Shown one piece after another: positions 1,985 through 4,289 of a DNA stretch of 52,473 nt. The DNA is from a bacterium (GTDB lineage: Bacteria; Patescibacteriota; Minisyncoccia; Minisyncoccales; CG1-02-41-26), in contig JAUSHZ010000001.1 of NCBI GenBank assembly GCA_030648255.1, forward strand, positions 1 to 52,473, read 5' to 3'. Below the pieces are notes generated by a model. That model saw nothing but the letters and a program-made list of their open reading frames with translations, searched no databases and was not told the origin of the DNA. Numbering within the stretch: the stretch's first letter is position 1; each line of letters opens with the position of its first letter. Position numbers and translations under genes: made by a program.

Positions 1985-2001
1985 AAAATAAGTTGATAAA
2001 T

Positions 2002-2274
2002 ATGAAATATTTTGATTGGGATATTGAAAAAAATAAAAAACTCAAAAAAGAGCGGGGTGTAAGTTTTGAAGAAGCTGTCTTAGCTATGAAAGGAGGCGAT
2101 CTTTTATACGCTGGCAAAAACCCAAATCAAAGTAAGTATCCCAATCAAAGTCTTTTTATTGTTAAGATGAGAGAATATTGTTTTCTGGTGCCTTTTGTGA
2201 GGGACGATGAAAAATGTTTTTTAAAAACAATCATTCCAAGCCGTAAGGCAACAAAAAAGTATCTTTCTAAATAA
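2002..2274 (+). CDS. brnT: BrnT-family toxin
   Basis: A 90-residue protein beginning MKYFDWDIEKNKKLKKERG and continuing VSFEEAV, which is the typical start of BrnT (FxWDxxKxxxNxxKHGVSFEEA). BrnT is a RelE-fold ribonuclease toxin of type II systems. The ATG at 2002 is preferred over an in-frame TTG at 1993. It is the first gene of a three-gene cluster, 21 bases before the antitoxin-like gene. BrnT normally pairs with the ribbon-helix-helix protein BrnA, which fits the next gene. The call is by motif reading only. Confidence 0.8.
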   Translation: MKYFDWDIEKNKKLKKERGVSFEEAVLAMKGGDLLYAGKNPNQSKYPNQSLFIVKMREYCFLVPFVRDDEKCFLKTIIPSRKATKKYLSK

Positions 2275-2295
2275 GCAAAATAATAAAATAAAAAT

Positions 2296-2595
2296 ATGGA
2301 ACAAAGACAATACAAATTAGATGAGTATGAACAGGAAATTTTAAGAGCCTATGAGGCGGGTGAGTTCGTGCCCATAAAGAACCAAGCAGAAAAAATAAAA
2401 GAATTAAGATTAGCGGCTAAAGATTTTTTGAATAAAAAAAAGAATATAAACATCAGGATTTCAAATGCTGACTTACAAAAAATTAAGGCCAAAGCAGCTG
2501 AAAAAGGCTTGCCTTATCAAACTCTGATAGGTTCTCTTTTGCATCGCTATTCTGCTGGAGAAAGTGGCGCGTCTTTAATTGCCGACGCTGATTAG
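2296..2595 (+). CDS. Ribbon-helix-helix antitoxin (CopG/BrnA-like)
   Basis: A 99-residue protein. Its C-terminal half (about 55-90) reads NINIRISNADLQKIKAKAAEKG then LPYQTLIGSLLHRY, the classical CopG-type strand-helix-helix DNA-binding fold. The N-terminal half would contact a toxin. In family systems this protein neutralises the toxin and represses the operon. It sits between BrnT (21 bases) and the MazF-like gene (34 bases), so it may serve either toxin. The inverted repeat at 1959-1978 is its candidate operator. Confidence 0.8.
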   Translation: MEQRQYKLDEYEQEILRAYEAGEFVPIKNQAEKIKELRLAAKDFLNKKKNINIRISNADLQKIKAKAAEKGLPYQTLIGSLLHRYSAGESGASLIADAD

Positions 2596-2629
2596 CATGT
2601 ACAGCCCGAAAAAATGATAAGATACAATT

Positions 2630-3022
2630 ATGAAGAAAGATTTTCAAAAATGGCATAGCAAAAAAGCGAAGGTTGACGAAATTGAAAAACGACCATTCTT
2701 TCACGAACGGGAAATTTGGTTTTGTCACCTTGGGGTAAATGTTGGCTTTGAGCAAGACGGAAGCGGGGAAGAATTTTTACGGCCAATAGTTATTATTAAA
2801 AAGTTTAGTAATGAGGTTTTTTGGGCGATACCTCTAACAAAAACGGAAAAGAAAACGCAATTTTATTTTCCTTTTTTTATTGGTTCGGAGTCAGAGGCGA
2901 GTGTTGCAATCTTATCTCAAATACGGCTTACTGATGGCAAAAGATTAAGTTATAAAATAGGGGATATGGCGGAAAGCGATTTTTTGCTACTAAAAGAAAA
3001 ACTCAAGGCATTGCTACCTTAA
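2630..3022 (+). CDS. PemK/MazF-like growth inhibitor
   Basis: A 130-residue protein. From residue 27 it reads EIWFCHLGVNVGFEQDG, then FLRPIVIIKKF and FWAIPLT, matching the MazF/PemK core (GxIxWxxxGxNxGxExxxxRPxvVl). This family cuts mRNA at short sequences. The RP pair and the following beta strands are intact. The first 25 residues, rich in Lys, are an extension. A TAAGAT box lies 8 bases before the ATG, so the gene may have its own, almost leaderless transcript besides read-through from brnT. Its antitoxin is presumably the gene before it. Confidence 0.75.
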   Translation: MKKDFQKWHSKKAKVDEIEKRPFFHEREIWFCHLGVNVGFEQDGSGEEFLRPIVIIKKFSNEVFWAIPLTKTEKKTQFYFPFFIGSESEASVAILSQIRLTDGKRLSYKIGDMAESDFLLLKEKLKALLP

Positions 3023-3136
3023 GTTTTTCTGAGTTTCCCCCTATTTTTGCAAACAGGGTCGGGCCGAAGCCATTTATGTTTATATGATAGCAAACTTAAA
3101 ACCCGTTTGTCAAGCCGAAAAAAGTAGTTGGGGCTA

Positions 3137-3164
3137 TTGACATCGTTTTTTAATTTGGTATATT
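3137..3164 (+). promoter_or_regulatory. Promoter for the SAM-I riboswitch transcript
   Basis: TTGACA (3137-3142), a 16-base spacer and TATATT (3159-3164). The stretch from GCTATTGACATCG to TTTGGTAT is nearly identical to the promoter of the rRNA unit at 4262-4289. Confidence 0.85.
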
Positions 3165-3187
3165 TTAAGTAGTTTTTAATTGAATAG

Positions 3188-3354
3188 TATTTATCAAGAG
3201 CAGGCGAGGGTACGGCCCTATGACCCTGCAGCAACCCCGTTTCACCTTTGGTGGAAGTCGGCGGGTGCTAACTCCGGCCAGGAATTTCCTGGAAAGATGA
3301 TGTTAGGTCATGAACTAAAGCCACACTTCTTTCTAGGAAGTGTTTTTTAGTTCA
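3188..3354 (+). promoter_or_regulatory. SAM-I (S-box) riboswitch with expression platform
   Basis: The aptamer spans about 3188-3304. Conserved parts are visible in order: TTATCAAGAG (P1 and the start of the core), GCAGGCGAGGG...CCTGC (P2), GGCCC...ATGACCC (kink-turn and pseudoknot region), GCAACC, GGTGCTAACTCC, P4 as CCAGG/CCTGG, then AAAGATGA closing P1. The platform is a long hairpin at 3311-3354: TGAACTAAA pairs with TTTAGTTCA around an inner ACACTTC/GGAAGTGT stem with a T-rich 3' side. High S-adenosylmethionine should favour the off state. It controls a gene of unknown function. Confidence 0.85.
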
Positions 3355-3375
3355 TTAAAATGGAGGTATTGGAAG

Positions 3376-3690
3376 ATGAAAGGAGAAAGGAAGGATAAGA
3401 AGGTAGCATTTATCACAACTAGTGACAATAAGCTATCGATAAGCGACGTTGAAACAAAATTAAGAGAATGTTTTAACAATATTCTTATCGTCGTCAATTT
3501 GTTTTTTCTCACCGATGATAATATCCAAGAAGTTTGGGCAGAAGTTAAAGAAAAAAACTGCAACTTTATTCTTGTTGATTCGGAGTTAATAAAAAATAAA
3601 AAATGGTGGAAATTTATTGAAAAGATTGGCGGGAAAGAATCAATTGGCGAAATTGCGGTTTCAGACACAGATTATTTACTTTCACTTTAG
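3376..3690 (+). CDS. Hypothetical protein under SAM riboswitch
   Basis: A 104-residue protein from the ATG at 3376, chosen because GGAGG lies 10 bases upstream. A longer frame from 3340 would begin inside the terminator-like hairpin. The sequence starts MKGERKDKKVAFITTSDNKL and includes a hydrophobic strand NILIVVNLFFL and NFILVDSELI, suggesting an alpha/beta domain. I recognise no motif. SAM-I riboswitches normally govern methionine or SAM synthesis, transport or recycling, so a link to sulfur or methyl metabolism is a fair inference from context only. A terminator follows, making it a single-gene unit. Confidence 0.75.
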   Translation: MKGERKDKKVAFITTSDNKLSISDVETKLRECFNNILIVVNLFFLTDDNIQEVWAEVKEKNCNFILVDSELIKNKKWWKFIEKIGGKESIGEIAVSDTDYLLSL

Positions 3691-3714
3691 TGTATTGAGT
3701 AGATGAAGGTATTG

Positions 3715-3752
3715 AAAAGTGGGAAAGGTTAAGAACCAATGCCCACTTTTTT
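3715..3752 (+). terminator. Rho-independent terminator
   Basis: AAAAGTGGG pairs with CCCACTTTT and runs into further Ts. The loop is about 18 bases. Confidence 0.7.
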
Positions 3753-3782: not shown

Positions 3783-4265
3783 ATGCAAAAGAATAAAATT
3801 CAGATTGATAGGCAAGCGTTAGAAAAGTTTTTGGTTGAAAAAGGATTTAGCCGTTTATCCGAAATAGAGTTTTGCAATCAGTTTGCTTTTATAAATGGAT
3901 TTTATCGGCCATCAAAAAATCAAATTAGAATTTTCTTGAAACCTTTGACTATTAAAAGATTGATTTTTCTTTCTCGGCCAAAAGAATTTTTTGCCAAAGT
4001 ATTAGCCCATGAACTGGGGCATTGTTTTGATAAGAAAATGAATGTTAATTTTGCTAAAAAGTATTGGCTTGAAATTTTATCTGTTGGCTTTTTATTTGTC
4101 GCAACTTTATTTATCTTTTTAAAGATTTTGGGTATTTTTTCTTGGCCAATCTTTGTTGTTATTTTGCCTTTTTTATATACAGCCTACAAGTTAAATCCTG
4201 CTGAAATTAGGGCTAGAAAATTTTCAAGAGATCATTGGTGCGAGGTTTCGAATTTTTGCTATTGA
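3783..4265 (+). CDS. Membrane-anchored zinc metallopeptidase-like protein
   Basis: A 160-residue protein with a zinc-binding HELGH motif at residues 76-80, in the context LAHELGHCFDKK. Two hydrophobic segments follow at about 97-131. NPAEIRARKF near the C-terminus offers Glu141 as a third zinc ligand, an arrangement seen in M48-like and related small peptidases. The substrate is unknown. The protein is short for M48. Its stop codon TGA (4263-4265) lies inside the -35 box of the rRNA promoter, so the C-terminal tail WCEVSNFCY may have been trimmed when that promoter arrived. Confidence 0.65.
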   Translation: MQKNKIQIDRQALEKFLVEKGFSRLSEIEFCNQFAFINGFYRPSKNQIRIFLKPLTIKRLIFLSRPKEFFAKVLAHELGHCFDKKMNVNFAKKYWLEILSVGFLFVATLFIFLKILGIFSWPIFVVILPFLYTAYKLNPAEIRARKFSRDHWCEVSNFCY

Positions 4266-4289
4266 CATCGGTTTTTAATTTGGTATTAT
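4262..4289 (+). promoter_or_regulatory. Promoter of the 23S-5S rRNA unit
   Basis: TTGACA (4262-4267), a 16-base spacer and TATTAT (4284-4289). It is nearly a copy of the promoter at 3137-3164. Transcription would begin around 4296. Confidence 0.8.

Follow-up and report, generated by a model that had tools for sequence, protein, structure and literature searches.

An ordinary SAM-I riboswitch leader before apparently exchangeable genes in Paceibacterota with an apparent lack of SAM synthesis

The targets of SAM-I riboswitches usually belong to SAM, methionine or cysteine metabolism, and gene function is often guessed from riboswitch targets, although this association is usual rather than defining. 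What, then, does a SAM-I riboswitch tell about the orphan gene behind it? The question is raised by a locus in the 52,473-nt stretch of DNA analyzed here (the window), which belongs to an 847-kb genome of the order Minisyncoccales (G000). The original prediction was that a SAM-I aptamer with its own promoter and a terminator-type platform controls an unrecognized gene for 104 residues, and that the riboswitch thereby offers a clue to what an orphan family does. The aptamer, promoter, platform and unrecognized gene are all supported by our analysis, but the functional clue is not.

The RF00162 covariance model matched positions 3188-3303 of the forward strand over its full length (model 1-108 of 108) with 75.5 bits and an E value of 5.5e-16. 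The gathering cut-off is 44.4 bits, and the SAM-I core elements had thus been correctly recognized. This is the sole RF00162 match in the window genome. The aptamer comprises P1-P4 and a pseudoknot between the P2 loop and J3-4 (ACGG/CCGG, three of the four pairs formed), and across 27 aptamers of the order the pseudoknot covaries (CUGG/CCAG, UUGG/CCAA, AUGG/CCAU, CUGA/UCAG, UUAG/CUAA). P1 has five pairs in the window and about seven in two congeners, because two nucleotides are deleted. The P3 bulge, usually AA, is CG or UG in the genus of the window and CG in the window itself. The three leaders of the genus are among the top RF00162 scorers of the order (75.5-78.4 bits), and no aptamer from outside the genus exceeds 55% identity to that of the window. 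In SAM-I structures, the SAM contacts reside in J1/2, P3 and J4/1. All of these pocket motifs are kept in the window aptamer (J1/2 AAGAG, P3 GCAACC/GGUGC, J4/1 GAAAGAU), suggesting SAM as the expected ligand.

The aptamer is preceded by the promoter TTGACA-16-TATATT (3137-3164, forward strand), which has 11 out of 12 consensus bases and a TG before the -10 box and is kept in both congeners. The 23S rRNA gene is preceded by a near-copy of this promoter (4262-4286, 1 mismatch in 25), the only other copy in the window. Downstream of the aptamer is an intrinsic terminator with a 9-bp stem and six U (3323-3348, hairpin 3323-3343), which is conserved in the congeners. We folded the leader computationally through the terminator U-run. 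In the ligand-free minimum-energy fold (-55.6 kcal/mol), an antiterminator arises when 3284-3297, which run from the 3' side of P4 through J4/1 into the first part of the P1 3' strand, pair with 3328-3341 within the terminator hairpin and so use up most of that hairpin. This pairing is incompatible with both P1 and the terminator. When P1 and the terminator were forced, the energy was -52.6 kcal/mol, 3 kcal/mol above the antiterminator fold, and ligand binding could close this gap. The antiterminator is the minimum-energy fold in all three leaders of the genus. The folding energies confirm two mutually exclusive structures for the window leader, and the claim of a promoter of its own with a terminator-type platform holds; by this modeling the leader has a standard transcriptional OFF layout. 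A Shine-Dalgarno sequence (GGAGG, 3362-3366), the final element common to the congeners, precedes the ATG of the ORF at 3376. The stop codon ends at 3690, and a terminator-like hairpin with a U-run (3714-3751) closes the unit before the next gene. Positions 3137-3751 thus read as a complete monocistronic SAM-OFF unit with promoter, aptamer, platform, ribosome-binding site (RBS), ORF and ORF terminator. SAM binding would hold P1 and block the antiterminator, and transcription would end at about 3348. At low SAM, 3284-3297 would pair with 3328-3341, and read-through would allow the 104-aa protein to be translated from its own RBS.

The ORF (P0001, 3376-3690, forward strand) looks like a gene. 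Its codon-usage score of 0.227 per codon equals the mean of true-frame 104-codon windows from known genes of the window (0.227), whereas wrong-frame windows average -0.22 per codon and 0.5% of them outscore it. An imperfect 15-nt direct repeat (87%) surrounds the ORF (3360-3374 and 3703-3717); it is possibly due to chance and too short to interpret. No homolog of the protein was found among 60 close relatives, in viral contigs or phages, or in 84,980 species genomes (one per species) by a pattern-plus-tblastn search that is sensitive to close relatives only. Six matches in a 384-genome sample of the class (15-19 bits, some with internal stops) were treated as noise. As had been noted, this sole gene of the unit is unrecognized: there was no Pfam or PHROGs family, no NCBIfam or PADLOC match over cut-off, and no reliable match among PDB sequences. 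The single-sequence structure model was poor (mean pLDDT 56), and a Foldseek search with it found no structural match at E<=0.001. At this low confidence, the protein is probably small, soluble and alpha/beta, and no membrane segment is evident when the sequence is read by eye. About 45 residues match the C-terminal part of Csn2 (E values 2e-4 and 5e-5). However, the match to TIGR01866/PDLC01023 is partial and scores 21.1 bits against a curated cut-off of 35, no cas gene is among the recognized genes of the window, and no Csn2 is among the PDB matches; Csn2 identity was therefore rejected. By these searches, the 104-aa protein appears to be a singleton in our data. Since no homolog was found, whether riboswitch-linked or not, there is no family to which the predicted clue could apply.

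The leader, by contrast with its gene, has close relatives. Two congeners, the metagenome-assembled genomes STD1_120 (G001) and STD1_80 (G002) of 'Candidatus Paceibacterota', are low-coverage assemblies from the same sample. Window positions 3131-3366, which start just 5' of the -35 box and reach into the RBS region, are 93.7% identical to G001, and 3133-3356 are 89.9% identical to G002. This identity of 90-94% over 227-239 nt cannot be put down to chance, and it exceeds the 82% of the adjacent gene for an M48-peptidase-like protein. The latter (160 aa, 3783-4265, forward strand; PF01435 E 0.006, below cut-off) lies outside the unit and served as a syntenic marker, and its orthologs in the congeners have 73-74% protein identity. 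All three leaders share one genomic setting, ahead of the M48-like and 23S rRNA genes, whose two halves are on two contigs in G001. The 23S rRNA gene of G001 (L026 from about 2217) seems to hold an insertion missing from the window copy. Upstream, the congeners differ in the segment that separates the leader from a conserved 57-aa ORF. In the window, a toxin-antitoxin-like cluster lies immediately upstream (1993-3022), with a BrnT-like protein (below the Pfam cut-off), a CopG/BrnA-like antitoxin and a PemK/MazF-like protein, and in G001 a DUF3800-II RNA (RF02961, 56.7 bits; L012 1301-1368) lies near a DUF3800-like ORF. A chimeric assembly at the leader is unlikely, since the longest exact stretch common to the congeners is only 47 nt; the congener contigs are of low coverage. 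In the set of 84,980 species genomes, the leader pattern of the genus matched only these two congeners, and none of the viral contigs matched. Thus, the leader does not look like a traveling viral element.

Homology of the leaders ends at 3356-3366, in the RBS region, and between the window and G002 it restarts at 3748. The gene behind the leader encodes 104 aa in the window, 332 aa in G002 and about 362 aa in G001. In G002, the 332-aa gene is followed by a second SAM-I riboswitch and metK. The G001 gene is split by an insertion sequence: contig C7 ends just past the leader in sequence that is repeated at several contig ends, contig C8 opens with the opposite end of the insertion sequence, and a single open frame of about 362 codons results when the flanks are joined across a TA duplication. 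The insertion sequence has inverted ends (CTTTGAATTACGAAAT) beside the TA duplication (L026 1-140 and L012 1-120, at the ends of C8 and C7), and copies of its end occur at six places in the G001 genome. No family was found for the 332-aa and the approximately 362-aa proteins. The 332-aa protein has no homolog in 246 genomes of the order, showed no similarity to the 104-aa protein in direct comparison, and gave a structure model worse than that of the latter. Each of these ORFs has its own terminator, codon usage is gene-like in the 104-aa and 332-aa ORFs, and the conserved RBS is directly upstream of an ATG in all three genomes. On the basis of these three genomes, it appears that the gene and its terminator were replaced and the leader was retained. 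Unrelated genes stand behind near-identical leaders, and the leader therefore does not predict a single kind of target.

Elsewhere in the order, SAM-I riboswitches usually accompany metK. They were found in 26 of the 247 genomes, and metK in 80. Among the 26 SAM-I genomes 21 have metK, compared with 59 of the 221 others (odds ratio 11.5, Fisher p 1e-7, uncorrected for relatedness), and nearly all SAM-I copies are directly upstream of metK. In one of these (G058:C153, L017), the 625-aa ORF behind the riboswitch encodes a MetK with an apparent intein-like insertion after GAGDQG, and the metK of G040 (an 839-aa frame with a split domain match) may resemble it. The exceptions to this arrangement are G000, G001, the first copy of G002, G018 (an unrecognized 132-aa protein behind, cut by the contig end), G132 (small ORFs behind), G224 (an unrecognized 365-aa protein behind, metK elsewhere) and G231 (an unrecognized 349-aa protein, 394 nt away). 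Neither metK nor an archaeal-type SAM synthetase was found in five SAM-I genomes, i.e., G000, G001, G018, G132 and G231. G000 and G001 are drafts, assembled into 33 and about 20 contigs, with an estimated completeness of 98-100%; thus, a loss of metK is likely in these two. All five genomes encode RsmH, a methyltransferase that requires SAM. With no SAM synthetase detected and a SAM-dependent methyltransferase kept, import of SAM seems most likely for the window genome, and the metK-less SAM-I bacteria in general probably take up SAM.

Taken together, we consider it fairly probable that the locus is a functional SAM-OFF unit with changing cargo in a bacterium that imports SAM. In this genus, the leader, promoter through RBS, would be retained as one platform in a constant position ahead of the M48-like and 23S rRNA genes, the gene behind it would be exchanged between species, and with SAM most likely coming from outside, the switch would report its supply. 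The leader could instead be a relic whose ancestral target, metK or another gene, was lost, with decay just begun and the present gene as a passenger. We regard this as rather unlikely. It agrees with SAM-I occurring without metK in the five genomes, with the two nucleotides lost from P1 in the window, with the distance between leader and ORF in G231, and with the disrupted gene of G001, but the genus leaders score among the best of the order and are better conserved than the neighboring gene, and RBS, codon usage and terminators of the cargo genes are intact. It is unlikely, too, that the 104-aa protein itself serves SAM or methionine supply, for example in SAM uptake or salvage. A supply gene would be sensible in a genome that needs SAM and lacks metK, and SAM-I is nearly always upstream of metK in the order. 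However, the protein is small, has neither a homolog or family nor an evident membrane segment, and is replaced by unrelated proteins behind the same leader in the congeners. The probabilities that we assign to the favored account, the relic and the supply role overlap in part.

Two further explanations concern the RNA. That the SAM-terminated transcript acts in trans as a stand-alone regulatory RNA, with incidental cargo, would explain why conservation stops at the RBS irrespective of the gene that follows, but the conserved RBS right before an ATG in 3/3 genomes, the gene-like ORFs with their own terminators and the normal cis architecture make this very improbable. A SAM-I variant with a changed ligand, like the spermidine class (PMC10853860), is even more doubtful. 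The gene context is indeed not SAM-related, and the CG or UG bulge in P3 departs from the usual AA. Nevertheless, the window shares its J1/2 and P3 pocket motifs with the order's metK leaders, and the usual AA is also missing from the metK leaders of G058 and G116. Returning to the favored account of a retained SAM-OFF leader with exchanged cargo, the present gene most likely encodes a lineage-specific protein useful at SAM shortage rather than a conserved enzyme from the metabolism of methionine or SAM. We suggest, tentatively, that SAM-auxotrophic Paceibacterota may have conserved SAM-I platforms with swapped, unrelated and lineage-specific genes, so that external SAM controls a changing cargo and not synthesis. 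Near-identical leaders before unrelated genes in three congeners limit the inference of function from a riboswitch. The locus also points to bacteria seemingly unable to make SAM yet sensing it, which could be tested as an indication that they depend on a partner. In the open literature searched, we found no discussion of SAM-I riboswitches in Patescibacteria.

The window unit shares aptamer class and antiterminator/terminator layout with the SAM-I-metK units of the order (the second copy of G002, G021, G013 and G050), but the target of those units is SAM synthetase. Compared with the spermidine riboswitch (PMC10853860), it has in common the SAM-I architecture, the transcriptional OFF switch and a target that need not be a strict SAM gene; the spermidine-sensing variants are altered in J1/2 and the P3 internal loop (PMC10853860), and these changes are not seen in the window aptamer. 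The full-length match, four-helix fold, covarying pseudoknot, pocket motifs and terminator-type OFF platform are those of SAM-I (RF00162). The window unit differs from typical SAM-I units in its singleton target gene, its metK-less genome, its five-pair P1 and the CG in place of AA in the P3 bulge, and in that the gene behind the conserved leader is not constant between congeners. Thus, the switch itself seems ordinary, and what seems unusual is how it is used: the SAM-OFF leader is well preserved, its cargo appears exchangeable, and the genomes apparently do not make SAM.
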